DNA from: Egicoccus halophilus
Lineage (GTDB): Bacteria > Actinomycetota > Nitriliruptoria > Nitriliruptorales > Nitriliruptoraceae
Assembly: GCF_004300825.1 (NCBI RefSeq)
Contig: NZ_CP036250.1
Coordinates: forward strand, 1,736,001-1,800,000
Direction of reading: 5' to 3'
DNA: 64,000 bases
The position numbers and the translations under genes are program-made. Of the stretch, positions 7,952 through 24,190 are shown piece after piece. How positions within the stretch are numbered: position 1 is the first letter of the stretch; every line of letters starts with the position of its first letter. The notes under the pieces are model-generated. The model was not told where the DNA came from and did no database searches. It saw only the letters and a list, made by a program, of their open reading frames with translations.

Positions 7952-8146
7952 GCCGGGCACGACGGGTACGCAGAGACGGGGAGGCCCGGTGGGCATGCCG
8001 CGTCGGCCAACCTGGCGTGCGAGAACCAGAACACCTTCGGCGAGCCCTACGGCTGGAACGGGCTGCACCTGTCGGTCCGGCTCGGCAACGGGCCCTACCG
8101 CCAGCTGGTCGACGTTCCCCCGCCGGGACGCGCGCGCGGCCGCTGA
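7946..8146 (+). pseudogene. Possible gene remnant, 66 codons, unidentified
   Basis: The stretch from about 8010 to 8140 reads as protein with near-complete G/C at third codon positions and an ordinary amino-acid mix (NLACENQNTFGEPYGWNGLH and on). It has no ribosome-binding site, begins inside the palindrome and matches no family I recognise. It may be the tail of a gene lost from this spot. It could equally be chance in GC-rich DNA between the cupin and GT2 genes. Confidence 0.2.
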
Positions 8147-8164
8147 CCGCGGCGCCGGCGGAGG

Positions 8165-9238
8165 TCAGCGGCCGCCGATCGGGAGGAGCCGGTGTGCGGT
8201 CGACGAGGCGCACCGGCGAGCCTGCCCCAGACCACGGCGACTGGCCGCCAAGCGCGGCCACCACCGCAGCGCGCGCACGTACAGCTGCCATGCCGATGCC
8301 GGTTCCCTGTCCCGTCGGAAGTCCGCGTGCTGGAGGAGCGCGAGGGCGCACGCACGGCGGAAGTAGGCCACGGTCGCCGCGTCCTCGCGAACGCTCGCGC
8401 GGGAGAGGACCTCTTGCATGCCGGCCAGTCCCACACGCAGCTGGGACGCCGTTCCCATGCTCTCGCGGCGCGCATGGAAGGTCGTGACCATGGACTCGGC
8501 TTCCTCGAGGCTCACCGGACGTTCGAGGTAGCGGGCGAGCGCCCGTCGACGGACGACGGGTCCCTGCCGTTCCCGCTCGGACATCGTCGAGCGGGTGAGC
8601 GAGGACGCAAGGATGCGGTAGTGCACCAGTACTTCGGGCAGGTTGGCCGCCTTGGTGACCTGACGCAGCCGATCCCACATGTCGCCGTCCTCGCCGAATC
8701 GATAGGCCGGGTCGAACCCGCCGAGCTCTCGGACCAGGTCGGTGCGGAAGACGACACCGGGCGAGCAGAAGGAGTTGACGAACAGCTCGCGGAGACGGAT
8801 CGGCCCGTCCTCGGTGGGGAAGCGGGCGACGCCGAGCGGAACGGCGTCCTCGGTCATGCGCTGCGCGGCACAGGAGAGCAGTCCGACCTCGGGATGAGCG
8901 TCGAGGAAACGAACCTGTCGTTCGAGACGCTCGGCGGCATAGCGGTCGTCGGCGTCCGCCCGTGCCACCAAGGGGGCGCGACAGCGCGCCAGGCCACGGT
9001 TCAGCGCGGTGGAGAGGCCCCGGTTGGGCTCGCCCGACAGCACGACGACGCGGGGGTCCTCGTTGGCGGCGCGCTCGAAGATCTCGAGGGTGGCGTCCGT
9101 GCTCCCGTCGTCGACGGCGACCAGCTCGAAGTCGGAGAAGGTCTGGTGCAACAGGTCGTCCAGGGCCTCCTGCAAGTAGTTCTCCGCGTTGTACGCGGGC
9201 AGCAGGATGCTGACACGTGGCCTGGAGTCTGCCGTCAT
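8165..9238 (-). CDS. GT2-family glycosyltransferase
   Basis: 357 residues with a GT-A fold at the N-terminus: VSILLPAYNAENYLQEAL at 9-26, AVDDGSTD at 41-48, and metal-binding DADD at 95-98 in VARADADDRYA. The HPEVGLLSCAAQRM and FGEDGDMWDRL segments follow in the usual order. The C-terminal 100 residues are helical and Arg-rich with no clear membrane segment. An AGGAGG ribosome-binding site stands 7 nt before the ATG. It lies 54 nt downstream of the topoisomerase gene on the same strand. Probably adds one sugar to a lipid-linked repeat unit in the cytoplasm; donor and acceptor unknown. Confidence 0.85.
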   Translation of the reverse strand: MTADSRPRVSILLPAYNAENYLQEALDDLLHQTFSDFELVAVDDGSTDATLEIFERAANEDPRVVVLSGEPNRGLSTALNRGLARCRAPLVARADADDRYAAERLERQVRFLDAHPEVGLLSCAAQRMTEDAVPLGVARFPTEDGPIRLRELFVNSFCSPGVVFRTDLVRELGGFDPAYRFGEDGDMWDRLRQVTKAANLPEVLVHYRILASSLTRSTMSERERQGPVVRRRALARYLERPVSLEEAESMVTTFHARRESMGTASQLRVGLAGMQEVLSRASVREDAATVAYFRRACALALLQHADFRRDREPASAWQLYVRALRWWPRLAASRRGLGQARRCASSTAHRLLPIGGR

Positions 9239-9292
9239 GTACAGCCTCCTGCGCTCTTTCGATGCCGACCGACCATCTGCGACCGGGTGCGG

Positions 9293-11392
<2,100 letters not shown>

Positions 11393-11393
11393 C

Positions 11394-11399
11394 TAGCGT
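11394..11399 (+). promoter_or_regulatory. TAGCGT -10-like element
   Basis: CGCTAGCGTT lies 32 nt before the GTG of the SAF-domain dehydrogenase, in the 221-nt divergent gap opposite the topoisomerase gene. It is identical to the TAGCGT boxes at 15987, 18088 and 48279. Confidence 0.4.
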
Positions 11400-11430
11400 T
11401 CGCAGCCGTCGACACGGCAGAGGATCGTTC

Positions 11431-12693
11431 GTGGTGCTGGGCATGGGGCAGTCGGAAGGCGAGAGCGCGGGCGTGCAGGCGCGGGTGGCCGTCGTCGGGG
11501 CGGGGTTCGTCGGTCGGGGACTGGTCCACCGCCTGGCGCGGCGCACGTCGGTCGCGGGTCTGCTGGTCGTCAACCGTCGTGCCGAGCGCGCCGTGCAGGC
11601 GTTCGCCGACGCCGGGGTCGACCCCGACGCCGTGGTGCGCGAGGACGATCCGGCCCGCGTCGGGGAGGCGGTGGCCGAGGGGCGGCCCGCCGTCCTCGCG
11701 GACGCGTCGGTCCTGCCCGAGGTGCCCGGCATCGACGTGGTCGTCGAGGCCACCGGCGCGATGACGTTCGGTACCCGGACCATCCTCGCCGCGCTCGAGG
11801 GCGGTCGCCACGTCGTGTCGATGAACGCCGAGGTGGATGCGCTGCTCGGCCACCACCTGCAGGCGGTCGCCGAACGGGCCGGGGTGGTCTACACCATCGG
11901 CGACGGCGACCAGCCCGGCGTGCTGCTGCGGGTGATGCACGAGGCGGAGCAGCTCGGTCTGCGTCCGACGGTCGCCCTCAACTGCAAGCGCAACCTCGAC
12001 GTCCACCAGAACCCCGACGACAGCCGGCCCTACGCCGAACGGGACGGGACCAGCGTCGAGATGACCACCGCGTTCGGCGATGGCACCAAGATGCACATCG
12101 AGAACGTGGTGACCGCCAACCTCAGCGGGTTGCGACCCGCCCCGATCGGGACGCCCGGCGTCCGGACCGAACTGGCCGCGGTGGCCGACGACGTGCGCGC
12201 GGCCGGCATCGAGCCCGGCACGGTGCACTTCACCCTCGGTGGCGACTTCGGGGGTGGCGTGCTGGTGCTGGCCGGCACGGACGATCCCGACTTCGACGCG
12301 CCCTACCTGCGCTACGGCAAGCTCGGTGACGGTCCCTGGTACCCGCTGTTCCGGCCCTACCACCTCATCCACATGGAGGTGCCGGTCACCATCGACCAGG
12401 TGCTGGCTGGCGGACCGGCGTTGGGCACGCGCACGCCGGCACCGGTGGCGACCTGCGTGGCGGTCGCCAAGCGCGACCTGCGGGCGGGCGAGCAGCTCGA
12501 CGGGATCGGCGGCTTCACCGCCTACGGGGTCGCGGCCACGGTCGAGGAGGGCGCCGAGCTGCTGCCGATCGGGCTGTCGCAGCACGCGACGCTGCGCCGC
12601 GACGTCGGCGTCGACCAGCCGGTCCGGCTCGAGGACGTCGAGCTCGACGAGGACGCCGAGCTCGTGCGCCTCGCCCGTCAGAGGCGCGGGTAG
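11431..12693 (+). CDS. Homoserine-dehydrogenase-like NAD(P) oxidoreductase with C-terminal SAF domain
   Basis: 420 residues. A Rossmann motif VAVVGAGFVGRGL lies at 19-31, then VVVEATGAMTFGT and HVVSMNAEVDALLG as in homoserine-dehydrogenase-like proteins of COG4091. The last quarter (TCVAVAKRDLRAGEQLDGIGG) looks like a SAF domain. GTG at 11431 is preferred because GAGG stands 7 nt upstream; an in-frame ATG at 11443 is the alternative. The substrate is unknown. COG4091-type proteins are oxidoreductases acting on sugar-derived or amino-acid-derived compounds. The gene ends 16 nt inside the convergent ugd gene. Confidence 0.7.
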   Translation: MVLGMGQSEGESAGVQARVAVVGAGFVGRGLVHRLARRTSVAGLLVVNRRAERAVQAFADAGVDPDAVVREDDPARVGEAVAEGRPAVLADASVLPEVPGIDVVVEATGAMTFGTRTILAALEGGRHVVSMNAEVDALLGHHLQAVAERAGVVYTIGDGDQPGVLLRVMHEAEQLGLRPTVALNCKRNLDVHQNPDDSRPYAERDGTSVEMTTAFGDGTKMHIENVVTANLSGLRPAPIGTPGVRTELAAVADDVRAAGIEPGTVHFTLGGDFGGGVLVLAGTDDPDFDAPYLRYGKLGDGPWYPLFRPYHLIHMEVPVTIDQVLAGGPALGTRTPAPVATCVAVAKRDLRAGEQLDGIGGFTAYGVAATVEEGAELLPIGLSQHATLRRDVGVDQPVRLEDVELDEDAELVRLARQRRG

Positions 12694-14009
12694 CCGATCC
12701 CGTCGTAGCGTCCGACCGCGTCGGGGGGGAGCACCCGGCGACCGTCGACGACCGGGACGTCGCGTGCCGCGAGCAGCTCGGGCACGTCGCGGTACTCCGG
12801 CCAGGACGTGACCAGCAGCACCGCGTCGGCGCCGTCGAGCGCCGTGGCGAGCTCGGTGGTGTAGGCGACACCGTCCGTGCCGAGCACCGCCTGGGCCGGG
12901 CCGGTCGCGATCGGGTCGTGGACCACCACCTCGGCGCCGCGGGCGACGAGTTCGGGGACGATCGTCAGCGTCGGGGATTCGCGCACGTCGTCGGTGCCGG
13001 GTTTGAACGCCGCGCCGAGGACCGCCACGCGGGAACCGGCCGGGGCCACATGGTGCTCGAGGCGCTCGAGCAGCTGCAACGGTTGGCGGGCGTTGACGGC
13101 CAGCACCGCTTCGAGCAGGTCCATCGACGCGTCGGTGGACCGGCCGTGGGCGACCAGCGCCTTGACGTCCTTCGGGAAGCAGCTGCCGCCGAACCCGCAG
13201 CCGGCCGCGAGGTAGGTCAGCATTACCGGACGCACCCGGGTGCCGTCCACGACCGGGGAGAAGCGGCGGTCGAGGTGGACGCCCTCGAGCACGTCGACCA
13301 CGTCCACGCCGAGCTCGCCGGACAGATTGCCGACCTCGTTGGAGAACGAGATCAGCGTCGCGAGCAGCGCGTTGGCGGTGTACTTGATCATCTCGGCGGT
13401 GCGCGGGTCGACCCGCAGGACCGGGGTGTCGTCGAACACGGCGTACAGCGCCGCCATGGTGTCGAGCGTGCGCTCGTCGACGCCGCCGAGCACGATCCGG
13501 TCGGGTTCGAGGAAGTCCTGCACGGCGACACCCTCGCGTAGGAACTCCGGGTTCATCGCGAGCCCGATCTCGGCGCCGACACGACGTCCCGACGCGGCCT
13601 CGAGCGCCGGGCCGACGACGTCCTCGGTGGTGCCCGGCACCACCGTCGACTTGACCGCGACGACGTGGTAGCGGTCGAGCTCGGCCACGACCTTGCCGAC
13701 CTGCCGGGCGGCCTCCTCGATCTGGCCGAGGTCGATGCGGTCCTCGCCGAAGGGGGTGCCGACCGCGAGGATCGTCACCTCCGTGTCGCGCACGGCGTCG
13801 GCGAGGTCGGTCGTGGCCCGGAACCGGGTGCCGACGACGCCGGCGAGCAGCTCGGGCAGCCCGTCCTCGTGGATCGGGGACTGGCCCGCGTTGATGCGCT
13901 CGACCTTGGCCTCGTCGAGGTCGACGCACACGACGTCGTGGCCGACGTGCGCGAGGCAGACGCCCGAGACCAGGCCGACGTAACCGGTGCCGACGATCGA
14001 GACACGCAT
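12678..14009 (-). CDS. ugd: UDP-glucose 6-dehydrogenase
   Basis: Oxidises UDP-glucose to UDP-glucuronate with NAD. 443 residues, normal length. NAD motif GTGYVGLV at 7-14, VKSTVVPGTT in the middle, the nucleophile C277 in GCGFGGSCFPKD and the C-terminal FKPGTDDVRESP. It lies 2 nt downstream of the UDP-xylose-synthase-like gene, so product and consumer enzyme are co-transcribed. Its 3' end overlaps the convergent SAF-domain gene by 16 nt. Confident call. Confidence 0.95.
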   Translation of the reverse strand: MRVSIVGTGYVGLVSGVCLAHVGHDVVCVDLDEAKVERINAGQSPIHEDGLPELLAGVVGTRFRATTDLADAVRDTEVTILAVGTPFGEDRIDLGQIEEAARQVGKVVAELDRYHVVAVKSTVVPGTTEDVVGPALEAASGRRVGAEIGLAMNPEFLREGVAVQDFLEPDRIVLGGVDERTLDTMAALYAVFDDTPVLRVDPRTAEMIKYTANALLATLISFSNEVGNLSGELGVDVVDVLEGVHLDRRFSPVVDGTRVRPVMLTYLAAGCGFGGSCFPKDVKALVAHGRSTDASMDLLEAVLAVNARQPLQLLERLEHHVAPAGSRVAVLGAAFKPGTDDVRESPTLTIVPELVARGAEVVVHDPIATGPAQAVLGTDGVAYTTELATALDGADAVLLVTSWPEYRDVPELLAARDVPVVDGRRVLPPDAVGRYDGIGYPRL

Positions 14010-14011
14010 GC

Positions 14012-15124
14012 TCAGGCCTCCTGCTGGGCGAGGTACCAGCGCAGGGCCCGGCGCAGACCCTCCTCGAGGCGGACCTCGGGGGCGTAGCCGAGCTCCTCGC
14101 GCGCCTTGTCGATGACCGGCTGCCGCCGGTTGGGGTTGTCGGTCAGGTAGTCGACGTCGTCGGAGGTCGCGGTGCCGACCCGCCCCTGGTAGCCGAGCTC
14201 CGCGCGGGCGAGCTCGACGACCCGTTCGGCGAGCTCGCGCATGGAGATCTCCGAGGCGTCGGTCCCGATGTTGTAGGGCTCGCCGGGACGGCCGTCGACC
14301 AGGATCCGGAAGTAGCCGTCGACCGCGTCGGCGACGTAGCAGAAGGTCCGTGACGCCGAGCCGTCGGAGAGCAGGGTGATGTCCCGACCGGCGAGGACGT
14401 CACGCATGAAGTCGGGCAGCACGCGGCGGTCGTCGATGCGGAGGCCCGGGCCGTAGTTGTTGAACGGGCGGGCGATCGTGACCGGGACGCCGCGGTGGCG
14501 GGCGAAGTTCACGCACAGGGTCTCGCCGTAGCGCTTGGACTCGTCGTAGCAGGCACGTGGCCCGGTGCACGACACGTGGCCGCGGTAGGTCTCCGGCGTC
14601 GGGATGTTGGCCGGGTCGGGATCGCCGTAGATCTCGCTGGTGGAGAAGAACAGCAGGCCGCGCAGCGGGTCGTCACCGTGCGCGCGGGAGGCCGCGTGGT
14701 CGAGCAACAGCCGCAGCCCGTCGACGTTGGCGTCCATCGTCTCGATCGGGAAGCGGCGGTAGTAGGTCGGCGAGGCCACCGACGCGGCGTGCACGATCCA
14801 GTCGAAGGTCGGCTCGTCGGCCGGCAGCGGCGCGAGGACATCGCGCTCGACCACCCGCAGCGACGCGTCGTCGAGGTCGGTCAGCCAGGCCGGCACGCCT
14901 CGCAGGAAGTTGTCGTGCACCGTGACCCGGATCGCCGGCCGGGACGGGTTCGCCCGGCTCCAGGCCAACGGGGCCTGCACCAGGTAGTAGCCGAGGAAGC
15001 CGGCACCGCCGGTGATCAGCAGGTCGTCGCCCGCCATGCGGGTGAAGACGCCGTCGAGCCGCTCTGCCAGACGGCGCAGGTCATCGGCCGTCACGTCCGG
15101 TACCGCGCTCACGCCACTGCCCAT
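14012..15124 (-). CDS. Extended SDR, probable UDP-glucuronate decarboxylase (UDP-xylose synthase-like)
   Basis: 370 residues. NAD motif ITGGAGFLG ends at 45, TSEIYGDP at about 162-169, then the PRACYDESKRYGE segment at 189-201 with catalytic Y193 and K197. The PRACYDE-K-R form is characteristic of UDP-glucuronate decarboxylases and close relatives. Being directly upstream of ugd supports a UDP-glucuronate to UDP-xylose route. An N-terminal extension of about 30 residues precedes the Rossmann fold. A dTDP-glucose dehydratase-like activity is less likely but not excluded. Confidence 0.75.
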   Translation of the reverse strand: MGSGVSAVPDVTADDLRRLAERLDGVFTRMAGDDLLITGGAGFLGYYLVQAPLAWSRANPSRPAIRVTVHDNFLRGVPAWLTDLDDASLRVVERDVLAPLPADEPTFDWIVHAASVASPTYYRRFPIETMDANVDGLRLLLDHAASRAHGDDPLRGLLFFSTSEIYGDPDPANIPTPETYRGHVSCTGPRACYDESKRYGETLCVNFARHRGVPVTIARPFNNYGPGLRIDDRRVLPDFMRDVLAGRDITLLSDGSASRTFCYVADAVDGYFRILVDGRPGEPYNIGTDASEISMRELAERVVELARAELGYQGRVGTATSDDVDYLTDNPNRRQPVIDKAREELGYAPEVRLEEGLRRALRWYLAQQEA

Positions 15125-15184
15125 CGTCTGCCGCCCTGTCCCCGTCGTCCGTCCGTCGGCGTCCGGTGCGGACGCCGGCGAAGG

Positions 15185-15985
15185 CTAACGGTCACGGGCC
15201 AGCAGAGCGGCCACGACGTCGAGATCGTGCGGCGTCACGACGTGCACGTTGCGCGGGTCGCCGGGCACCACGACGACGTCGTGCCCGATCGCGGTGACCA
15301 GCGCCGTGTCCTCGAGCGCCGGTGGGGGAGCGGACCCGCCGGCCGCCCCGCCGGCCGCCCTGCCGGCCGGTCCGCCGGCCGGTCCGCTCGCCGTGGCGCG
15401 TGCGGTCGCGCCGGCGGCGTGGGCCCGGCGCAGGACGTCGTTGCGGAACGCCGCGGGGGTCTGGACCAGCACCAGCTCGTCACGGCCGACGACCTCGTCG
15501 AGCCGGCCGTCGCGGGTCCGGCGCACGAGGTCGCCGGGGCGCAGACCCGGGACGGCCGCGTCGGCACCGTCGCGGACGGTGCGCACGAGCCGCTCGACCA
15601 GGGCGGCGTCGGCCAGCGGGTTGGCGGCCTGGTGCACCACGACCACGCCCCGGTGCGCCGGGACCGCGGCCAGCCCGTTGCGCACCGAGGCGGGCCGGTC
15701 GGGGCCGCCGGTGACGACCGCGTCGACCGGCGCGCCGTCCCAGTCGGCACCTGGTGGCAGGACCAGCACGACACCGTCACAGCAGTCGCGCACCGCGGCG
15801 AGCGCGAGATCGACCAGCCGGTGTCCGGCGACCGTGACGAACTGCTTGGGGCGGCCGAACCGGCTGCCGCTGCCGCCGGCGAGCACGACGGCCCACACGG
15901 GACCGTCGGCGGCAGCCGTGTCGACGGCCGGCGTGTCGACGGCCGGCGTGTGAGCGTGCGGCGTAGCCGGGTGGGGCGAGGTCAC
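15185..15985 (-). CDS. IspD-like nucleotidyltransferase with altered catalytic motifs
   Basis: 266 residues of the GT-A-like IspD/TarI family. The nucleotide loop GGSGSRFGRPKQ (37-48) and QTPAAF (175-180) are intact. The usual HDAARP motif, whose Asp and Arg are catalytic in E. coli IspD (D106, R109), reads HQAANP at 118-123. The C-terminal Lys of the NxK motif is also missing (NVHVVTP). A Gly/Pro/Ala-rich insert at 200-218 comes from a 12-bp tandem repeat. The N-terminus has a repeated TPAVD segment. It heads the ugd operon, 60 nt before the SDR. A normal methylerythritol-phosphate enzyme is doubtful; a diverged sugar- or alditol-phosphate cytidylyltransferase, or an inactive copy, fits better. 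Confidence 0.6.
   Translation of the reverse strand: MTSPHPATPHAHTPAVDTPAVDTAAADGPVWAVVLAGGSGSRFGRPKQFVTVAGHRLVDLALAAVRDCCDGVVLVLPPGADWDGAPVDAVVTGGPDRPASVRNGLAAVPAHRGVVVVHQAANPLADAALVERLVRTVRDGADAAVPGLRPGDLVRRTRDGRLDEVVGRDELVLVQTPAAFRNDVLRRAHAAGATARATASGPAGGPAGRAAGGAAGGSAPPPALEDTALVTAIGHDVVVVPGDPRNVHVVTPHDLDVVAALLARDR
15335..15382. repeat. Four tandem 12-bp repeats inside the IspD-like gene
   Basis: Units CCCGCCGGCCGC, CCCGCCGGCCGC, CCTGCCGGCCGG and TCCGCCGGCCGG lie head to tail. They keep frame and encode the Gly/Ala/Pro-rich insert of the protein, so they likely arose by slippage. Confidence 0.8.
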
Positions 15986-15986
15986 C

Positions 15987-15992
15987 TAGCGT
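15987..15992 (+). promoter_or_regulatory. TAGCGT -10-like element before rfbC
   Basis: CCTAGCGTTC lies 50 nt before the rfbC ATG, in the divergent gap with the IspD-like gene. Same hexamer as at 11394, 18088 and 48279. Confidence 0.35.
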
Positions 15993-16041
15993 TCCCCTGG
16001 CGGTCGACGGAGCCGCGGAGTCTGACAGAGGAGCCCGACGG

Positions 16042-16587
16042 ATGCGGTTCACCCCGACCGAGGTCGACGGCGTGTTCGTCGTGGACGTCGAGCCGCACGC
16101 CGACGAGCGGGGCAGCCTCGCGCGCGCCTACTGCGCCGAGGAACTCGCGGCCCACGGGCTCGAGGCGGACGTGGCGCAGATGAACCTCAACCACAGCGTG
16201 CGGGCAGGGACGCTGCGCGGGCTGCACTTCCAACATGCGCCCCACGGGGAGGCGAAGCTGGTTCGCTGCGTCCGTGGCGCCGTCTTCGACGTCGCGGCCG
16301 ACGTGCGACCCGACTCGCCGACCTACGGTCGCTGGGTCGGGGTCGAGCTGACCGCGGACAACCGCCGGGCACTGTTCGTCCCGGCCGGCTGCGCGCACGG
16401 GTTCCAGACCCTGGTCGACGACACCGAACTGCTCTACACCGCCAGCCACCCCTACACGCCGGGGGCGGAGGGCGGCGTGCACCACGCCGACCCGATGTTC
16501 GAGATCCCCTGGCCGCTGCCGGTCGCCTCGGTGTCCGACAAGGACGCGTCCTGGCCGCACGTGCCGTCGGCGGACACGACGGGGTGA
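16042..16587 (+). CDS. rfbC: dTDP-4-dehydrorhamnose 3,5-epimerase family protein
   Basis: 181 residues of the RmlC cupin family. The catalytic base H62 is present in LRGLHFQ, followed by KLVRCVRGAVFDV, and LYTASHPYTPGAEGG carries the expected Tyr. FVPAGCAHGFQ is also typical. No rfbA, rfbB or rfbD is in the window, and the next gene makes CDP-glucose. It may therefore epimerise a CDP- or GDP-linked 4-keto-6-deoxy sugar, or pair with dTDP genes elsewhere. The ATG follows GACAGAGGAGCCCGACGG, a good ribosome-binding site. Confidence 0.88.
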   Translation: MRFTPTEVDGVFVVDVEPHADERGSLARAYCAEELAAHGLEADVAQMNLNHSVRAGTLRGLHFQHAPHGEAKLVRCVRGAVFDVAADVRPDSPTYGRWVGVELTADNRRALFVPAGCAHGFQTLVDDTELLYTASHPYTPGAEGGVHHADPMFEIPWPLPVASVSDKDASWPHVPSADTTG

Positions 16588-16639
16588 CCCGGCGCGAAAC
16601 CGAGGTCCCACGCCGCCCTGCCGGGTACCGTCGGGCATC

Positions 16640-16655
16640 GGCAACGGGGGACGAG
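16640..16655 (+). repeat. 16-nt leader element, copy 2
   Basis: Identical to 7531-7546 (GGCAACGGGGGACGAG). Here it ends 10 nt before the rfbF ATG and is followed by GGGAGTCGGT. Confidence 0.5.
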
Positions 16656-16665
16656 GGGAGTCGGT

Positions 16666-17469
16666 ATGAAGGCGGTCCTGCTCGCCGGCGGATTCGGGAC
16701 GCGACTGAGCGAAGAGACCTCGGTACGTCCCAAGCCGCTGGTCGAGATCGGCGGACGGCCGATCATCTGGCACATCATGCAGACCTATGCCGCGCACGGG
16801 ATCGACGACTTCGTCGTCTGCTGCGGCTACCGGGGGGACCTGCTCAAGGAGTACTTCGTCAACTACTGCCGCTGGGAGTCGGACTTCACGGTCGACCTCG
16901 GCTCGGGAGAGGTGGAGATCCACCGCTCCCCGCGCGAGTCCTGGCGGGTCACCCTGGTCGACACCGGCCTGCACACGATGACGGGAGGCCGTGTCCGTCA
17001 CGTGCGTGATCTGCTCGACGACACGTTCTTCCTCACCTACGGCGACGGGGTCGCCGACGTCTCCATGTCGGACCTGCTCGCCTTCCACCGTCGCCAGGAC
17101 GCCCTGGTCACGCTCACCGCGGTGCAGCCGCCGGGACGCTTCGGCGCGCTGACGATCGCGCCCGACGAGGACAAGATCACCCGCTTCCACGAGAAGCCGA
17201 GCAGCGGCGACGGTGGCGGGGAGGCGTGGATCAACGGCGGCTACTTCGTCGTCGAACCGTCGGCCCTCGACTACGTCGACGGACCCGACACGGTGTGGGA
17301 ACGCGAGCCGCTGGAGCGGTTGGCCTCCGAGGGCAACCTCGCCGCCTACCGCCACGCCGGCTTCTGGCATCCGATGGACACCCTGCGCGACAAGCACCAG
17401 CTCGAGGAGTTGTGGAGCGGCGGGTCGGCGCCGTGGACCGCCGCCTGGCCCGTGCCCCTGCAAGCTTGA
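16666..17469 (+). CDS. rfbF: Glucose-1-phosphate cytidylyltransferase
   Basis: Makes CDP-glucose from CTP and glucose-1-phosphate, the first step to CDP-linked dideoxy or branched sugars. 267 residues. The nucleotidyltransferase signature LAGGFGTRLSEETSVRPKPL begins at residue 6, with IGGRPIIWHIMQTYAAHG, FLTYGDGVADV and FHEKP further on; this is the RfbF rather than the RfbA pattern. The expected partner CDP-glucose 4,6-dehydratase (RfbG) is not recognisable here, though the GalE-like SDR at 18191 is close. The gene has its own leader and a TACCGT box at 16626-16631. Confidence 0.9.
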   Translation: MKAVLLAGGFGTRLSEETSVRPKPLVEIGGRPIIWHIMQTYAAHGIDDFVVCCGYRGDLLKEYFVNYCRWESDFTVDLGSGEVEIHRSPRESWRVTLVDTGLHTMTGGRVRHVRDLLDDTFFLTYGDGVADVSMSDLLAFHRRQDALVTLTAVQPPGRFGALTIAPDEDKITRFHEKPSSGDGGGEAWINGGYFVVEPSALDYVDGPDTVWEREPLERLASEGNLAAYRHAGFWHPMDTLRDKHQLEELWSGGSAPWTAAWPVPLQA

Positions 17470-17484
17470 CGCGCTCGCGGCGAG

Positions 17485-17925
17485 TCAGCGAGGCGTAGCC
17501 CGACGTCGCGAGAGGCCGCAGTTGGGTCGGGCCTCGATGACCGGATCGGTTGGCAGTTCGACGCTCGAGCGGGTGCTGAGGCAGACGCCGGCCTCGCCGT
17601 CCTCCCCGCCCGCGCCGAGCGGATCGGCGGATCCTCCACCAGCCCCTGGATCGGAAGGCGCGTCGAGCGCGGCGCGGAGTTCGGACTGCAGTACCTCGCG
17701 GGCGGTCGATCGCGCGCCGCGAACCTCACGTCTCACCGTGCGGAAATCCTCGCCGAATCCGTCGACCGCGGCCTCGCGTTTTAGCTCGGCCAACGCGGTA
17801 CCGGTCTCTTGACGGAGGCGCGACAACACCTTCGCCACGTCACCTGTCAACTTGGGGAGCCGGTTCGGACCGACGACCAGCACCGCCACGACCGCGATGA
17901 CCAACAGTTCCTGGAACCCCGGCAC
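17485..17925 (-). CDS. TatA/TatB-family Sec-independent translocase component
   Basis: 146 residues if begun at GTG 17925, which has GAGG 5 nt upstream and puts the family hallmark at the very N-terminus: one short membrane helix (FQELLVIAVVAVLVVG), the hinge GPNRLP and an amphipathic helix (LTGDVAKVLSRLRQET). ATG at 17985 would add 20 residues. The length and acidic, Ser/Gly-rich tail favour TatB over TatA. No tatC is nearby. A twin-arginine substrate is encoded 2.5 kb away, which makes a dedicated role conceivable. Convergent with rfbF, 15 nt apart. Confidence 0.75.
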   Translation of the reverse strand: MPGFQELLVIAVVAVLVVGPNRLPKLTGDVAKVLSRLRQETGTALAELKREAAVDGFGEDFRTVRREVRGARSTAREVLQSELRAALDAPSDPGAGGGSADPLGAGGEDGEAGVCLSTRSSVELPTDPVIEARPNCGLSRRRATPR

Positions 17926-18087
17926 GTGGACCTCGAACGGAGAGGATGCGTCTGCCCCCACGCCGAACCGTACAGAGGCAGGCATGCCCTGTCTCGGGAA
18001 CTGGCGGGGAACGGCTCCCGCCGACCGGGCTCGGACGAGCGAATCGACGTCTTTCTCCGTTGGCGAGACACGACGCCTGCGTCGGGC

Positions 18088-18093
18088 TAGCGT
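18088..18093 (+). promoter_or_regulatory. TAGCGT -10-like element
   Basis: GGCTAGCGTC lies 98 nt before the epimerase ATG in the divergent gap with the Tat gene. The longer distance leaves room for a leader. Confidence 0.3.
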
Positions 18094-18190
18094 CTCCGAC
18101 GGGCAAGTCGGTTCCTGTACGCGGATCGGGGCGATCCGGGGGAACCGTGTCGTGCGTGGGGGCACGTCCCAGGGATGTGGGGGGTGGAAC

Positions 18191-19174
18191 ATGCGGGTCG
18201 TGGTGACCGGAGGCGCTGGGTTCATCGGCGCCAACCTCGTCAGGCGCCTGGTGACGACGCCGGGGATCACCGGTGTGGTCGTCGTCGACGACCTGTCCAC
18301 TGGTGGACTGGCGAATCTTGCAGGCATCGACGACGAGGACGTCGAGACACCGGTCGATGTCAGGATCGGGAGCATCCTCGACGAGGGCCTGCTGCAGGCG
18401 GCCTTTGCCGGCGCTGACGCGGTCGTGCACTTGGCGGCGTTGCCGTCAGTCCCGCGCTCCATCGATGATCCGATGGCCAGTCACCTCGTCAACGCGACCG
18501 GCACGCTGTCGGTGCTCGAGGCGGCACGTCGTGCCGGGAACCTGCACGTGGTACTCGCGTCGTCCTCGTCGGTGTACGGCGCGAACCCCGCCCTGCCGAA
18601 GTCCGAGAACCTGCAGCTGCGACCGATGTCGCCCTACGCGGTGTCGAAGCAGGCAACGGAGGCGTATGCGCTCGCCTACGCCCACTGCTTCGGCCTTCCC
18701 GTCCTGCCGTTCCGGTTCTTCAACGTCTTCGGTCCTCTGCAGGCCGCCGGGCACGCCTACGCCGCCGCGATCCCGGCGTTCCTCGACGCTGCCATGCGTG
18801 GGGTGCCGGTCCCCATCGAGGGAGACGGGCTCCAGACCCGCGACTTCACCTACGTCGGGTCGGTGAGCATGGCGGTCATCGATGCGCTGCAGCGTCGCGT
18901 GACCAGCGACACGGCCGTGAATCTCGCCTTCGGCAGCCGCTGCACGCTGCTCGAACTGATCGACGAGTTGGAACGTCAGGTGGGAACACCGCTCGTCCGT
19001 GAACACCGTGCACCACGCCAAGGGGACGTGCGCCACTCGCAGGCCGACGCGACGCGACTTCGTGCCCTGTTCCCCGAGCTGGAACCCGTCGACCTGCAGA
19101 CGGGGTTGCGGCAGACCATCGACTGGTTCCGCACGCTGCCCGAGTACGCCCTGGGCGGCGCCAGCGTGCGCTGA
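18191..19174 (+). CDS. NAD-dependent sugar epimerase/dehydratase (UDP-glucose 4-epimerase-like SDR)
   Basis: 327 residues from the ATG after a GGGGGGTGG ribosome-binding run. NAD motif TGGAGFIG at 6-13, ASSSSVYG at 123-130 and catalytic Y149xxxK153 in SPYAVSKQATEAY. FRFFNVFGP and TRDFTYVG follow in order. The pattern fits GalE/WbpP-type 4-epimerases of UDP-hexoses or UDP-HexNAc. The aminotransferase gene begins 1 nt after its stop. It could supply a 4-epimer or a 4-keto intermediate for that enzyme. Confidence 0.85.
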   Translation: MRVVVTGGAGFIGANLVRRLVTTPGITGVVVVDDLSTGGLANLAGIDDEDVETPVDVRIGSILDEGLLQAAFAGADAVVHLAALPSVPRSIDDPMASHLVNATGTLSVLEAARRAGNLHVVLASSSSVYGANPALPKSENLQLRPMSPYAVSKQATEAYALAYAHCFGLPVLPFRFFNVFGPLQAAGHAYAAAIPAFLDAAMRGVPVPIEGDGLQTRDFTYVGSVSMAVIDALQRRVTSDTAVNLAFGSRCTLLELIDELERQVGTPLVREHRAPRQGDVRHSQADATRLRALFPELEPVDLQTGLRQTIDWFRTLPEYALGGASVR

Positions 19175-19175
19175 C

Positions 19176-20318
19176 GTGACCGCCGACCCACCGATCCGGA
19201 TCCACCTGTCACCACCACACGTCGGGGTGGAGGAGCGCGAGCACCTGCTCGAAGCGTTCGAGTCGAACTGGATCGCGCCCCTCGGCCCAGACGTCGATGC
19301 GTTCGAGGCGGAGTTCGCCGCCGTGCTGGGCGCTCCGCACGCCGTGGCGCTCTCGTCGGGAACCGCCGCCCTGCACCTCGCGCTCCGTCAGGTGGGGGTG
19401 GGCCCCGGTGACCGGGTCCTGTGCTCGACGATGACCTTCGTCGCGAGCGCCGCTCCGATTCGCTACCTGGGCGCAGAGCCCGTGTTCGTGGACGCCACCG
19501 AGGACTCGTGGAACCTCGACGTCGATCTCGTCGCCGAGGCGCTCGACGAGGCAGCGCGCATCGGCCGGCCGTACCGGGCGCTCGTGGCCGTCGACCTCTA
19601 CGGCCGTTGCTGCGACTACGAGCGTCTCGCGCCGTTGTGCCGCGACCATGGCGTGGCGCTGGTCGAGGACGCGGCCGAGGCGCTGGGCGCCCGCCATCGT
19701 GGTCGCGCCGCCGGCACGTTCGGTGCGGCTGGCGTGTTCTCCTTCAACGGCAACAAGATCCTGACGACCTCGGGGGGTGGGATGCTCGTGACCACGGACG
19801 CGGATCTGGCGGCGCGCACCCGGCACCTCGCCACGCAGGCCCGTGAGCCGGCCGCTCACTACGAGCACGTGGAGGTCGGCTACAACTACCGCCTCAGCAA
19901 CTTGTTGGCGGCCCTCGGCCGGGCACAGCTGCGCAAGCTCGAGGAACGGGTTTCCCGTCGTCGGGAGATAGGACGCCGCTATCGGGAGGCGCTGACGGAC
20001 CATCCGGGCGTCCACTTCGCGCCGATGGGCGACCCTGACGAGAGCAACCACTGGCTCACCTGCTTGACGGTCGACCCGCTGGTTGCGCGGGTCGACCGGG
20101 AAGCGTTGCGGCAGCATCTCCGGTCACGCGGCATCGAGGCGCGACCTGTCTGGAAGCCGATGCATCGCCAGCCGGTCTTCGGCGACTGCGACGTGCTCGG
20201 TGGCAAGGTGGCCGAGCGGCTCTTCGAGGAAGGACTCTGCCTGCCCAGCGGCTCGTCGCTCACGGAGGCGGAGCAGGACGAGGTCGTCACCGAGATTGGC
20301 CACGTCCTAGGTCGTTGA
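19176..20318 (+). CDS. DegT/DnrJ/EryC1/StrS aminotransferase (PglE/perosamine-synthase-like)
   Basis: 380 residues from GTG at 19176. PLP-dependent sugar aminotransferase that would convert a nucleotide-linked 4-keto-6-deoxy sugar to a 4-amino sugar using glutamate. NWIAPLGPDVDAFE near the start is typical of the 4-aminotransferase branch, SGTAALHLAL begins at 61, VEDAAEALGA contains the PLP-binding Asp, and SFNGNKILTTSGGGM holds the Schiff-base K194. Best paired with the WbpM/PglF-type dehydratase at 24187. Confident family call; the exact product is inferred. Confidence 0.9.
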   Translation: MTADPPIRIHLSPPHVGVEEREHLLEAFESNWIAPLGPDVDAFEAEFAAVLGAPHAVALSSGTAALHLALRQVGVGPGDRVLCSTMTFVASAAPIRYLGAEPVFVDATEDSWNLDVDLVAEALDEAARIGRPYRALVAVDLYGRCCDYERLAPLCRDHGVALVEDAAEALGARHRGRAAGTFGAAGVFSFNGNKILTTSGGGMLVTTDADLAARTRHLATQAREPAAHYEHVEVGYNYRLSNLLAALGRAQLRKLEERVSRRREIGRRYREALTDHPGVHFAPMGDPDESNHWLTCLTVDPLVARVDREALRQHLRSRGIEARPVWKPMHRQPVFGDCDVLGGKVAERLFEEGLCLPSGSSLTEAEQDEVVTEIGHVLGR

Positions 20319-20400
20319 AGGCCCGACAGCGTGTACCGCCCGGAGATCGCTGCGTACGAAATCTACGTGCGGGCAGGACCGTCACCGCAGCGGTCGCGCG

Positions 20401-20406
20401 TAATGT
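20401..20406 (+). promoter_or_regulatory. TAATGT -10-like element
   Basis: TAATGT lies 49 nt before the ATG of the Tat-signal protein and is the most A/T-rich hexamer of that 136-nt gap. No recognisable -35 box. Confidence 0.3.
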
Positions 20407-20454
20407 GCTGGTTGCTGGGACGGTCACCTGCGGCCGTCGGCACGAGGGGACGAG

Positions 20455-20970
20455 ATGCACGACGACGAGAAGATCGAGGGCGCGGGCGCCGGACGCCGCG
20501 ACTTCCTCAAGCGCACCGCCGTGGTCGGGGGCATGGTGTGGGCTGCGCCACTGATCCAGAGCGCACCGGCGTTCGCGGCCCAGACGTCGCCGCCTCCGCC
20601 GACCGGAGGCCAGGACATCTCGTTCGTCGCCTTCGTCATCGAGAACCGGTCGAGTACCCGCTACAAGTACGAGGACGCCGGGAAGAACACGGAGTGCACG
20701 TTCGAGGGCGGCGGGGAGTTGAACAAGCACTTCGACGGCTACCCCGCGCTCCAAGAGGAGTGGAAGAACACGCCGCAGGGCAGCCCCACCGATGGGCGCG
20801 TCAGCCTCTCGTGCACCGACGACAAGGTGTGGACGATCACCCCGAGCGCGAACTACCGCGTCAAGTGGGCGCTGGTGAAGAGCGGCTCGAAGTCCATGGC
20901 GACGGCGTTCCTCGGGCCCACCGGGACGGGCTACCCGCATGGACAGGCGGTGCAGGTCTTCCAAGCCTGA
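20455..20970 (+). CDS. Small twin-arginine-signal exported protein, unknown function
   Basis: 171 residues. A Tat signal peptide is clear: RRDFLKR at 14-20, then a hydrophobic stretch (TAVVGGMVWAAPLI) and a likely AFA-A cleavage near 42. The mature part begins with a Pro-rich linker (TSPPPPTGG) and is a compact domain of about 120 residues with two Cys (ECTF and SCTD), which could form a disulfide. I do not recognise the family. The ribosome-binding site is GAGGGGACGAG, part of the shared leader element. It directly precedes the HprK-like/PqqD genes and is the best candidate substrate or cargo of that system. Confidence 0.8.
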   Translation: MHDDEKIEGAGAGRRDFLKRTAVVGGMVWAAPLIQSAPAFAAQTSPPPPTGGQDISFVAFVIENRSSTRYKYEDAGKNTECTFEGGGELNKHFDGYPALQEEWKNTPQGSPTDGRVSLSCTDDKVWTITPSANYRVKWALVKSGSKSMATAFLGPTGTGYPHGQAVQVFQA

Positions 20971-21020
20971 TTCAGCTCGGCAGTGGAGGGACGGTCTCGG
21001 GCCGCCGCCTCGGGTGCTTC

Positions 21021-21926
21021 TCAAGCATCGTCGGCCGCCGCCATCAGGCGTCGTACGGTTGCAACCGCTTCGTCGAGTCGTCCGAACGAGAGACGGAAGG
21101 CGGGCACGTCGGTGAGTGCGTTCTTGAGACCACGCAGTTCACGGATGCCGCTCGAGGTCTCTTCGACCGCGAAGGCACACGACGAGGCGTGACGGAGCGC
21201 ATCAGCTCCTGACAGCGGCTCGAGCCGCACCGGCTGGTCCGCGACGTACTCGGGGAACACGAGCAGCCGGAGGTAGCCCTCCGCGACGACATCGGTGAAC
21301 CCCGTTGCCAGGACCTGCCACTGGTCACGGTGGTAGTGCTTGAGGCGCTGGGGAAGTTCCGGCTCGTGGTGAGGAAGCACCGGCCAGGACCCGGGGTCCA
21401 GTGAGAGCGGCTTCCGATATCCCTGGACCAGTCCGTCGGCGGACAAGGCCACCGCCTCGTCGGTGAGATAGGCCAGGCCCGTATCCAGGAGTCCCGCCAC
21501 CAACGTCGTCTTGCCGGACTCCATGGCAGCCGGCAGGAGTACGACCGCGTCGCCACGTGCGACCGCTCCGGCATGCAGGAGCACGCGGTCCTGGACGGGC
21601 TGGATCACGTGACGGTTCACGGCCCAGAACAGTTGAGCAACCAGGGTCCCGGGGTCCGCCGATACGGCGATCTCGATGTCGTCGCGCCAGACGCCGCCAC
21701 GGCCGTGGTCGGGCGTCAGAACCGAAAAGCACGCCGATCGGTCGTCGGCGTCCGAGCTCCGCATCGGTGCGTAACAGGCGTCGAGATGAGTGGACAGTTC
21801 GGGGTCGGAGGTGCGGATGCTCCAGCTACGCCCGAAGCACTGGAACGGCCCGACTCGGTGATGGCACCGCTCGTCACGTTGCCTGGACAGAATCGCCGAC
21901 CTGCCGTCCGATGGTGACTCCCGCAC
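21021..21926 (-). CDS. HprK-like P-loop protein (HPr kinase C-terminal-domain relative)
   Basis: 301 residues from GTG at 21926, chosen because GGCGGGGG lies 6 nt upstream; an in-frame ATG at 22052 would add 42 residues of low-complexity sequence. The core LLHAGAVARGDAVVLLP (from 117) leads into a P-loop AAMESGKT at 133-140, where Ala replaces the first Gly of Walker A, then YLTDE at 153-157 and RKPLSLDPGSWP. This is the order seen in HprK-like proteins that occur with PqqD proteins and NTP_transf_5 proteins in RiPP and HPr-rel-A loci. Activity (kinase, ATPase) is unproven. Divergent from the first PqqD-like gene. Confidence 0.8.
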   Translation of the reverse strand: MRESPSDGRSAILSRQRDERCHHRVGPFQCFGRSWSIRTSDPELSTHLDACYAPMRSSDADDRSACFSVLTPDHGRGGVWRDDIEIAVSADPGTLVAQLFWAVNRHVIQPVQDRVLLHAGAVARGDAVVLLPAAMESGKTTLVAGLLDTGLAYLTDEAVALSADGLVQGYRKPLSLDPGSWPVLPHHEPELPQRLKHYHRDQWQVLATGFTDVVAEGYLRLLVFPEYVADQPVRLEPLSGADALRHASSCAFAVEETSSGIRELRGLKNALTDVPAFRLSFGRLDEAVATVRRLMAAADDA

Positions 21927-22129
21927 CAAAAGCCCCCGCCCTATCCCCACGACCGCACACCATACTGCAGCGAGAGATCGCCGCAGTCGGTAGCTCGAGA
22001 ACGTCAGAAGAGGGCGTTCGGCGAACGATGCGGGCGACCAACGTGCGAACATTTCACTGATGCGGCATGGTCTCCGTCCGGCGTCCGGTCGCGGAATCGG
22101 CGCCTGCGTGGGTCGGACGTGGAGGGGCC
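21927..22129. promoter_or_regulatory. Divergent intergenic region with GTTCG-N-CGAAC inverted repeat
   Basis: This 203-nt stretch separates the HprK-like and PqqD-1 genes and must hold both promoters. GTTCGGCGAAC at 22016-22026 has perfect 5-bp arms. A related GTTCGGTCGAAC lies at 22583-22594 before the LuxR-type gene, suggesting a shared operator. If the HprK-like gene starts at the ATG at 22052, the element would lie inside it. Confidence 0.35.
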
Positions 22130-22489
22130 ATGTCATTCGTTATCGATGGTTCCTACGTTCCGAGTCTCGGCAGCGGCGTGATCGCAATGCCCGTCGCGGA
22201 GGAGACCCTGCTCTTCGATGAACAACGCGGCATGCTGCACCAACTCGACCCCATCGGGGCGGCCGTATGCAGCTGCATGGACGGTGAGACGTCGATCGAT
22301 CAGGCGGTCGACGAACTCGCTGCTGCCTTCGGAGCCCCCCGTGATCAGGTCGCCAGCGATGTACTGGCCCTCGTGGAGGAGTTCGGACGGCTGGGGCTGC
22401 TCGATGGCCTGGAGCCGGAACCCGCCCCCGCTGCGATCAAAGGAGACGACGTCCAGTTTCCCGATTCCGGCGGGGCGTGCGGTCCGTGA
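22130..22489 (+). CDS. PqqD/RRE-like protein 1 with C-terminal tail
   Basis: 119 residues from ATG 22130, directly after GGAGGGG. Residues 1-93 follow the PqqD fold pattern: a beta-rich start (IAMPVAEETLLFDEQRGMLHQL) and then DPIGAAVCSCMDGETSIDQAVDELAAAFG with the usual winged-helix segments. PqqD-type domains (RREs) bind leader peptides or partner enzymes. Beyond the domain is a 26-residue tail, Pro/Ala-rich then ending DSGGACGP, which is unusual. The tail might be a linker, a docking site or an encoded peptide substrate. No PQQ genes are present, so a role in PQQ synthesis is unlikely. Confidence 0.75.
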   Translation: MSFVIDGSYVPSLGSGVIAMPVAEETLLFDEQRGMLHQLDPIGAAVCSCMDGETSIDQAVDELAAAFGAPRDQVASDVLALVEEFGRLGLLDGLEPEPAPAAIKGDDVQFPDSGGACGP

Positions 22490-22826
22490 CGTCGACCAGA
22501 AGGTGTATCGCGCACTCCTGGCCGACGAAAAGGGGCCGTCTGGCCTTTGATGGTTTGAACCACATCGACTAGTTACTGCATGGTTCGGTCGAACGCGTGT
22601 GGCAAGTGTTCCAGTCGCCTTCCGAAGTGAAATCGAACCAATGTAGTTCCTTCGTCCTTCGAATGTGGTCCTTTGCGGCAAGCACTTCTCTTCTGCCGAT
22701 TCGATTGACGAGTCGAGCAGGGACATGCATGCTCCTCGTTGTCCGACGGATGTCAGCAGTTGGGGTGATGGGCAGGCCGGCGGAGGGGCGCGAGTCGAGC
22801 GGCTCGCAAGGGGCGACAGGCGAGCC
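22490..22826. promoter_or_regulatory. 337-nt gap with operator-like inverted repeats upstream of the LuxR-type gene
   Basis: Noticeably richer in A/T than its surroundings between about 22545 and 22700. It contains TGGTTTGAACCA (22551-22562, perfect 5-bp arms around TG), then GTTCGGTCGAAC (22583-22594, 5-bp arms around GT) about 30 bp later, and a GAACCA half-site near 22632. No convincing small gene was found. This looks like a regulated promoter region. Confidence 0.4.
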
Positions 22827-23867
22827 ATGGCTCGGGGCGAAGCAACGGTACGAGTGGGCATTCTTGCGGCTGATCGTGCCTTCGCGGAGGGCCTTGATGC
22901 GGCGCTCGGACGTTGCGGTGTCGAGGCCACACTGCTGCCTCCCGATCCGTCGGCATGGCCACAGGACCTGACCGCTCTGGCGGTCGAACTCGGCCATGAC
23001 GACTCCGACGCTGCCTGGGCTCGGGTGTCGGGGTGCGCACCTGCTGCCGTGATCGGTCTCGGCGCCGCCCTGGATGTCGGACTGCACTCGTCGGTGACCG
23101 TGCGCCTGGGCATCGACGCCAGCCTTCGGCAGTTCCTCCATGCGGTGGCGCCCGAAGTGGATGCCGTCGGATCGGAGGAGCGACCGGCCTCGCCGGTGCG
23201 CGTCCGGGTCGTGTTGGTCGACCCGCACCGACTGCGGCGTGAGGTCACCGCAGCCGCACTCGACCGGCAGCCCGGTATCGAGGTCGCGGCTTGTGCCGAC
23301 GACGCGTCGACGGCGCTGTTGCAGATGGAGCGTGTCGGTGCCGCGGTGGTCGTCGTGGCGGTGGGAGTCGCTGACGCCGGGCGGATCTGCGCGGCTGCAC
23401 GCGCCGACGGCCGCCCTCGCGTGCTGTTGCTGGACCGCGCAGCCGATGAGGTTCGCCTCCTCGATGCGATCGAGGCCGGCGCCGATGGCTACACGGTTGG
23501 CGAGAACGGCATCACCGGCGTCGCTCGGGCGGTCGAAGCGATCGCGCGAGGGGAGACGGTCGTCCCGGCCGTACTGCTGGGACCGCTGCTCCGACGCCTG
23601 ATCCGTCGTCAGCGCGATGCTGCACAGGCCGCAGAGCGGCTCGTGGTGCTGACGCCTCGCGAGCGTGAGGTACTGGCGCTCCTCGTGGAGGGGAGCGACC
23701 AGCTCGGCATCGCCAGCGCGCTGTTCATCTCACCGGAGACGGCGCGCACGCACCTGCAGCGCCTCCTGCGCAAGCTCGGCGTCCGCTCCCGCGCGGAGGC
23801 GGTCGCTCTGGTGGAGCAGACCGGTATGGCAGAGCGCCTGGGACGCATCGTGGAGGCTGCGTCGTGA
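22827..23867 (+). CDS. Orphan LuxR-type transcriptional regulator with two degenerate receiver-like domains
   Basis: 346 residues from ATG 22827. Two receiver-like Rossmann units come first, beginning VRVGILAADRAF (about 8) and VRVRVVLVDPHRL (about 124). Neither shows an Asp at the phosphorylation position; strand 3 of the second reads AAVVVVAVGVADA. The C-terminal LuxR HTH starts at LTPREREVLALL and continues SPETARTHLQRLLRKLGVRSR. No histidine kinase is adjacent, so control by ligand or protein binding is more likely than phosphorylation. The next gene, PqqD-2, starts within its stop codon (GTGA), so regulator and RRE protein are made together. It is the likely regulator of this operon. Confidence 0.8.
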   Translation: MARGEATVRVGILAADRAFAEGLDAALGRCGVEATLLPPDPSAWPQDLTALAVELGHDDSDAAWARVSGCAPAAVIGLGAALDVGLHSSVTVRLGIDASLRQFLHAVAPEVDAVGSEERPASPVRVRVVLVDPHRLRREVTAAALDRQPGIEVAACADDASTALLQMERVGAAVVVVAVGVADAGRICAAARADGRPRVLLLDRAADEVRLLDAIEAGADGYTVGENGITGVARAVEAIARGETVVPAVLLGPLLRRLIRRQRDAAQAAERLVVLTPREREVLALLVEGSDQLGIASALFISPETARTHLQRLLRKLGVRSRAEAVALVEQTGMAERLGRIVEAAS

Positions 23868-24190
23868 ACGATCCCGTCCCGTCGTTGGCGGCTCACCGGG
23901 GCGTGACGCAGACGCTTCCGTCCCGGCGCGGTGACGTCGAACGGTATGACGGCGGAACCGAGAGCGTGTTGTTCGTTGCTGGTAGCAGTCAGCGGCACGT
24001 CCTGAATGCACCGGCACGCGCCATCTGGGAGGCCTGCGACGGCACCACCACGATCGAGGAGCTCGTCCGAGCCATCTGCACCGTGTTCTCGGTGTCGTAC
24101 GGCGCGGCGTTGCACGACATCGAGGTGGTTCTCGGGGCGCTCGAGCGAGCCGGACTGGTGGCATGGACAGGGAACGAGGGGCGGACATGA
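23864..24190 (+). CDS. PqqD/RRE-like protein 2
   Basis: 108 residues from a GTG overlapping the regulator's TGA. The PqqD pattern is clear: ESVLFVAGSSQRHVLNAPARAIWEACDG, then TTIEELVRAICTVFSVSYGAALHDIEVVLGALERAGLV. The IWEACDG-TTIEELV segment is the typical helix-turn before the wing. It ends in the start codon of the WbpM-like gene (ATGA). By analogy it binds a peptide or partner enzyme; nothing shows which. Confidence 0.8.
   Translation: MNDPVPSLAAHRGVTQTLPSRRGDVERYDGGTESVLFVAGSSQRHVLNAPARAIWEACDGTTTIEELVRAICTVFSVSYGAALHDIEVVLGALERAGLVAWTGNEGRT

Follow-up and report, generated by a model that had tools for sequence, protein, structure and literature searches.

A conserved IspD-like paralogue with altered active-site residues heads a ugd operon in Egicoccus halophilus

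Within a 64,000-nucleotide stretch of the Egicoccus halophilus genome (the window), the first gene of a ugd operon encodes an IspD-like protein that is a real, conserved and probably functionally shifted relative of a known kind of enzyme. In the explanation we favor, to which we assign a probability of roughly one half (0.52), this IspD-fold cytidylyltransferase uses CTP and has been recruited to surface-glycan synthesis, its acceptor being neither MEP nor ribitol-5-phosphate. We infer that the window-type proteins, namely this protein and its orthologues, are active, that CTP is their nucleotide and that their product enters a glycan.

Fold and active-site residues of the window protein

The Pfam IspD family (PF01128) matches the window protein with 105.4 bits against a cut-off of 27, and NTP_transf_3 is an additional Pfam match. 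The NCBIfam IspD equivalog TIGR00453 scores the four window-type proteins at 128.8 (window protein), 138.1, 137.5 and 137.5 bits, all below its cut-off of 181.3. As modeled by AlphaFold from a 47-row alignment (mean pLDDT 89.2), the window protein has the IspD fold; the best PDB matches of the model are the IspDs of M. smegmatis and M. tuberculosis with CTP or CMP, S. aureus TarI enters the Foldseek matches from rank 23, and the TM score against M. smegmatis IspD is 0.83-0.84 by target length.

Alignment with E. coli K-12 IspD places Q119, N122 and H248 at D106, R109 and K213, respectively, and NVHVVTP stands where NxK-TP is expected, so that both the change of HDAARP to HQAANP and the absent NxK lysine, reported by an earlier first-pass annotation of this DNA, are borne out by the reading frame and the alignment. 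A 48-row alignment of 4 window-type, 3 other divergent and 41 canonical proteins then allows a residue-by-residue comparison in E. coli numbering. D106, R109, Q167, D190, K213 and T215 occur in 41/41 canonical rows; position 140 is T or S in all 41, and position 189 is T or S in these rows save for one other residue. In each of the four window-type proteins, by comparison, the same replacements are found, namely D106Q, R109N, T140L, Q167A, D190E and K213H. Position 189 is L or I, and position 215 is V, A, A and T, meaning that T215 is lost in three of the four. In the window protein itself the changes beyond those first noticed are T140L, Q167A, T189L, D190E and T215V. The combination of HQAANP with N-x-H, present in 4/4 window-type and 0/41 canonical rows, exceeds chance.

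The residues kept are equally consistent. All four window-type proteins possess G16, G18, R20, K27, Q28, R85, S88, R157 and T165, among them the G18, R20, K27 and S88 required of an IspD, and G82 is kept in three and is A in one. VLAGGSGSRFGRPKQF is retained in the window protein, and the CTP loop is intact as first described.

A review of IspD has R20 and K27 contacting the phosphates of CTP, counts D106, R109 and K213 among the strictly conserved residues, and infers that R157 and K213 contact MEP (PMC11770629). The three strictly conserved positions are Q, N and H in the window-type proteins. The structure paper on B. subtilis IspD reports a contact between the K213 equivalent and the alpha-phosphate of CTP, counts D104 among the CTP-binding residues and describes a bond from T211 to the R20 equivalent (PMC5099578); we assign D104 to D106 from sequence and T211 to T215 by position. 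Because equivalents of K213, D106 and T215 take part in CTP binding in that enzyme, the CTP side and the acceptor side are not cleanly separable, and lost or slowed catalysis is thus a real possibility.

The Gly/Pro/Ala insert built from repeats, also seen in the first pass, was recovered by TRF as a 12-bp tandem unit of 3.9 copies at 15335-15381, and pLDDT falls to 57-63 over residues 201-220 of the model. The orthologues keep HQAANP and N-[VL]-H without having the insert, which marks the motif as a trait of the lineage and the insert as specific to the window protein. We therefore reject the insert as the cause of a changed function; it is real, present only in the window protein, and uninformative about the subfamily.

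Table 1. Features of the window discussed in the text (strand relative to the window).
Feature	Position	Strand	Remarks
DXR-II-like (DLO-type) SAF-domain oxidoreductase	11443..12693	+	convergent with ugd; exact start uncertain
ugd, nucleotide-sugar (UDP-glucose) 6-dehydrogenase, operon gene 3	12678..14009	-	TIGR03026, 401.6 bits (cut-off 189.8)
UXS-like SDR (UDP-glucuronate decarboxylase-like), operon gene 2	14012..15124	-	Epimerase; PDB 2b69, E 7e-49
IspD-like cytidylyltransferase paralogue	15185..15985	-	266 aa, free of internal stops; starts with GTG at 15985
NVH for NxK	15242..15250	-	E. coli K213 to H
Gly/Pro/Ala insert, about 28 codons (195-222)	15320..15403	-	absent from the 3 orthologues
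HQAANP for HDAARP	15617..15634	-	residues 118-123; D106Q and R109N in E. coli numbering
CTP/P-loop region, kept, LAGGSGSRFGRPKQ	15842..15883	-	E. coli G16, G18, R20, K27, Q28 in 4/4 window-type proteins
15-bp tandem repeat, 3.1 copies	15905..15951	-	in N-terminal extension; TRF
rmlC-like 3,5-epimerase	16042..16587	+	divergent from the IspD-like gene; TIGR01221, 163.2 bits (cut-off 155.75)
rfbF, glucose-1-phosphate cytidylyltransferase	16666..17469	+	TIGR02623, 384.5 bits (cut-off 300.25)

Distribution, selection and origin of the clade

A protein search over 101 genomes, comprising the host and 100 relatives, yields two matches far above the rest, in G019 (62% identity) and G010 (65% over the matched stretch). 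A scan of genome contigs found 99 relatives, of which 80 were kept for analysis. D106, R109 and K213 are all present in 73 of the 80, with an ispF match on the locus in 67 of these 73. Two are of the window type, one from a Nitriliruptoraceae MAG (L035, the same sequence as in G019) and one from a MAG labeled Syntrophomonadaceae (L036). Three others (L063, L070 and L085) and the frame-broken L103 diverge in another way, and L107 is too short to classify. In total there are four distinct window-type proteins; the three orthologues (P0002 from G019, P0003 from G010, and that of L036) are 61-64% identical, keep HQAANP and N-[VL]-H, and have SDR and ugd neighbors as in the window. The SDR on the L036 contig (L036:1-8947) is 95% identical to that of the Nitriliruptoraceae MAG, so this contig is probably misbinned or its label wrong.

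Among 35 genomes of the host family, three carry the window type with scores above 400 bits, the next match reaching 101.6, in a search whose profile was built from the same three proteins that it ranks first. These three again rank first when a seven-row model (A4) is run over 396 genomes of the phylum, 98 of which match it at E 1e-40 or better. Thirty loci were drawn from this phylum search, and the 27 that are not of the window type all possess D106, R109, K213 and an ispF match; a second ispD in genome G315 is likewise canonical (D, R, K). A plasmid collection searched for close relatives of the window protein returned 18 records, all below 60% identity.

The window-type gene is under purifying selection. 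Comparison of the G019 and L036 genes gives dN 0.125 and dS 0.56 (dN/dS about 0.22), and that of the window gene with the other three members gives dN/dS 0.30-0.43 at dS 0.80-1.06. Synonymous change thus exceeds amino-acid change, as not expected of a decaying gene, and the neighboring SDR and ugd genes display a similar pattern with stronger conservation. That the IspD-like gene is a decaying duplicate without function, with HQAANP a product of drift, is highly improbable: the window copy does have a repeat-built insert and an N-terminal repeat, but the insert is limited to that copy, and all four members have open frames, an identical motif and dN/dS well below 1.

In a 50-row tree the four window-type proteins group together (100/100), separate from a second group (100/100) formed by the three canonical IspDs that their genomes also encode. 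The window-type clade is placed among the IspDs of Acidimicrobiia and other Actinomycetota; its nearest canonical row in both trees computed is L037, from an Acidimicrobiia MAG, which is 59-60% identical to the window protein in MAFFT alignments and 53% by tblastn. Identity to the host's own IspD is 39-41%. Given its tree position apart from the host's canonical IspD, the window gene is not a recent copy of it, and on these trees both transfer and an old duplication are possible origins.

Gene neighborhood and candidate functions

The IspD-like, SDR and ugd genes follow one another on the minus strand with gaps of 60 and 2 bp, in agreement with the earlier claim that the first of them heads a ugd operon. 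The best PDB match of the SDR, 2b69, is UDP-glucuronate decarboxylase 1. Beside the three orthologues the SDR copies are 76-79% identical to that of the window and the ugd copies 71-80%, the L036 ugd being represented by its first 157 aa up to the contig end. An SDR match at E <1e-60 occurs in only 4 of the 396 phylum genomes, namely the same three and G393, where the SDR is 41% identical and the surrounding 17 kb gives no match to the IspD-like protein. Other sugar enzymes are also encoded in the window, as are glycosyltransferases and an ABC transporter. No Rfam family matches at gathering score in positions 8000-24000, and a tRNA scan of the window found none. The 171-aa protein encoded at positions 20455-20970, between a DegT gene and another open reading frame without a Pfam match, matches no Pfam family at 0.001; its N-terminus is twin-arginine-like (RRDFLKR).

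Copies of rfbF, rmlC and the oxidoreductase gene lie near the window-type gene in G010 and L035, where the oxidoreductases are 72-74% identical and the L035 rfbF is cut by the contig end; the L036 contig ends before this region. A set of rfbF, rfbC and the oxidoreductase, with another SDR, occurs in four plasmid regions (two Deinococcus, one Paracoccus and one Gemmobacter; L205, L206, L207 and L208) chosen among the best 15 of 103 records. Nothing in these four regions matches the IspD-like protein, so the set can exist without the paralogue. The plasmid set of rfbF, SDR, rfbC and SAF-domain oxidoreductase looks like a CDP-sugar pathway with an uncharacterized reductase, and we take the set of rfbF, rmlC and oxidoreductase to resemble the streptomycin genes strQ, strX and strU. 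The two Deinococcus regions also carry a gene annotated as lhgO.

In the favored explanation, as judged from the residues kept, a window-type enzyme would probably bind CTP much as IspD does, through the Gly-rich loop and the equivalents of R20 and K27. A phosphate on the acceptor would then attack the CTP alpha-phosphate, pyrophosphate would leave, and the resulting CDP-conjugate would pass to the glycan machinery as a precursor of the surface polysaccharide made by the cluster; its putative link to the products of UGD and UXS is one of gene position. We further suggest, tentatively, that the HQAANP/NxH clade may constitute a third functional type beside the CDP-methylerythritol and CDP-ribitol types, forming a CDP-conjugate not yet known. 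The acceptor might then be tied to the UGD/UXS or the CDP-glucose branch, and the chemistry would proceed without the conserved Asp, Arg and Lys.

Several observations weigh against recruitment of an active CTP-using enzyme. With D106, R109 and K213 replaced, catalysis could have been lost, and the CTP side is touched too, T215 being lost in three of the four members and G82 in one. The plasmid regions that have the rfbF set without the paralogue count against it as well, as do the negative searches for PF04464 in the host and for LicD in the host, G010 and G019. An IspD-fold protein that is catalytically dead and kept for another job, for example to regulate the SDR or UGD or to act as a scaffold for either, is unlikely, yet a real possibility since residues strictly conserved in IspDs (PMC11770629) are gone, some of which touch CTP in the B. 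subtilis enzyme (PMC5099578). R20, K27 and S88, however, are unchanged in 4/4 members, the gene is under purifying selection, and at D106, R109, T140, Q167, D190 and K213 the four members share a single replacement each, which is not a random pattern. Of the two fates that the first-pass annotation proposed, recruitment to glycan synthesis thus gains from four members in the same gene setting under purifying selection, and inactivation has become the less likely one, weighed against the strictly conserved residues lost.

A nucleotidyltransferase with a changed nucleotide or acceptor class, which might for instance convert a sugar-1-phosphate to a UDP- or CDP-sugar and feed UGD and UXS directly, strikes us as quite unlikely. 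The position at the head of the operon, before the UXS-like SDR and ugd, would suit such an enzyme, and NTP_transf_3 also matches the window protein, but R20, K27 and S88 are unchanged and GalU scores over its cut-off in the host (G000) and G010, so that UDP-glucose supply needs no IspD-like gene there; G019, a draft of 290 contigs, has no GalU match over the cut-off.

A role in isoprenoid biosynthesis was considered in two forms. The window gene is not the only ispD of the host, which would have spoken against a changed function. The host genome (3.98 Mb, one contig) contains four PF01128 matches, the best of which (173 bits) is a canonical ispD at 3884962-3885618 with HDAARA and MKVT; its product passes TIGR00453 (184.7 against 181.3), and the adjacent gene is ispF (PF02542, 199 bits). 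With this canonical ispD-ispF pair and DXR-I also present in the genome, the window gene is an extra copy, and the second ispD for which the earlier annotation had advised looking has been found.

The second form, a redundant MEP cytidylyltransferase paired with the DXR-II-like neighbor as a second entry into isoprenoids, is very unlikely. The neighbor is indeed a DXR-II relative (PF21135, 101.1 bits, with SAF; PDB 3upl, E 1.5e-53), and the literature describes this family as including MEP-forming enzymes, ties K191, K193 and T229 of DXR-II to substrate binding, and states that T229 is absolutely conserved in DXR-II and that the uncharacterized DLO1 family has hydrophobic residues at 229 (PMC3847144). 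By hand count along the PDB alignment, however, the neighbor has N, M and P at K191, T229 and H250 of the Brucella enzyme, and thus lacks the substrate anchors K191 and T229, with K193, R320 and Y322 kept. From its sequence we judge it to be DLO1-like and not MEP-forming, and we reject it as an unlikely MEP supplier. The IspD-like protein, moreover, lies below the TIGR00453 cut-off, and the stretches examined around the four window-type genes give no ispF match. Across the 35 family genomes, a weaker-scoring oxidoreductase (104-106 bits) occurs in exactly the three with an HQAANP protein, and a stronger-scoring type (164-214 bits) in seven others.

Separately, four genomes of one genus of the host family (G014, G025, G029 and G033; L151, L150, L148 and L149) have PF21135 DXR-II matches of 207-212 bits, and a PF02670 DXR-I match is absent from all four, so that DXR-II has likely replaced DXR-I naturally in these genomes.

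A conserved clade in which the CTP loop is intact and the same set of other residues is exchanged would offer a natural test of what determines acceptor choice in the IspD fold. It could also point to a new activated building block for surface glycans in these actinobacteria, among whose carriers one is labeled Nitriliruptoraceae. There is also a practical warning: PF01128 labels such genes IspD, yet they should be left out of any tally of isoprenoid genes or drug targets.

Comparison with known cytidylyltransferases

Other divergent IspD paralogues resemble the window clade in part. Those of L063, L070 and L085 likewise have R109 changed and K213 replaced by H, but they differ from the window type at positions 105-109 (ASASH, VSAAH and ADAAH), and the genomes of L063, L070, L085 and L103 each hold a higher-scoring IspD with D106, R109 and K213. 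The two Acidimicrobiales paralogues (L063:3800-4468 and L070:7992-8648), with ASASH and VSAAH for HDAAR, QAPSAF and N-x-H, lie directly upstream of chorismate synthase (PF01264). The Kineosphaera limosa paralogue (L085:7866-8786), with ADAAHPL and N-L-H, adjoins obg (PF01018); a similar one in Piscicoccus intestinalis (L103:96-837) is split across two frames, its neighbor obg-like by sequence. In an all-column tree the four HQAANP rows cluster with the three N-x-H rows in a single group (97/88). When 17 active-site columns are removed, this group appears in 0% of 200 bootstrap trees, and constraining the rows together is not rejected (p-AU 0.323). On these alignments convergence and common origin both stand.

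TarI makes a poor match. Alignment with TarI, which the first-pass annotation had advised, speaks against that identity: S. aureus TarI keeps HDAVRP and NIKVTTP, and the window protein has neither HDAxRP nor NxK. The similarity in sequence is weak as well (3.9e-7 for 4jis, where the best IspD reaches 3.2e-22), and the TarI family NF001183, with a cut-off of 166, scores the window protein at 44.7 bits, P0002 at 35.7 and L036 at 42.6, P0003 not being listed at 1e-8. TarI usually has a polyol-phosphate transferase (PF04464 or LicD) as a partner that is separate from the enzyme itself. Known transferases that use CDP-polyols were sought as these two families; the host genome has no PF04464 match, and LicD (PF04991) is absent from the host, G010 and G019. 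On the defining residues and family cut-offs we file the window protein neither as IspD nor as TarI, and among the titles and abstract openings listed in literature searches there was no IspD-like enzyme of a sugar cluster.

Relative to IspD itself, the window protein shares the fold, the CTP loop and the equivalents of R20, K27, S88 and R157. It differs in the replacement of D106, R109, T140, Q167, T189, D190 and K213, in having no ispF neighbor, and in standing beside a canonical ispD in the same genome. The fold is common also to TarI and mammalian ISPD, and an IspD relative that serves a glycan has precedent in the literature (PMC4873967).
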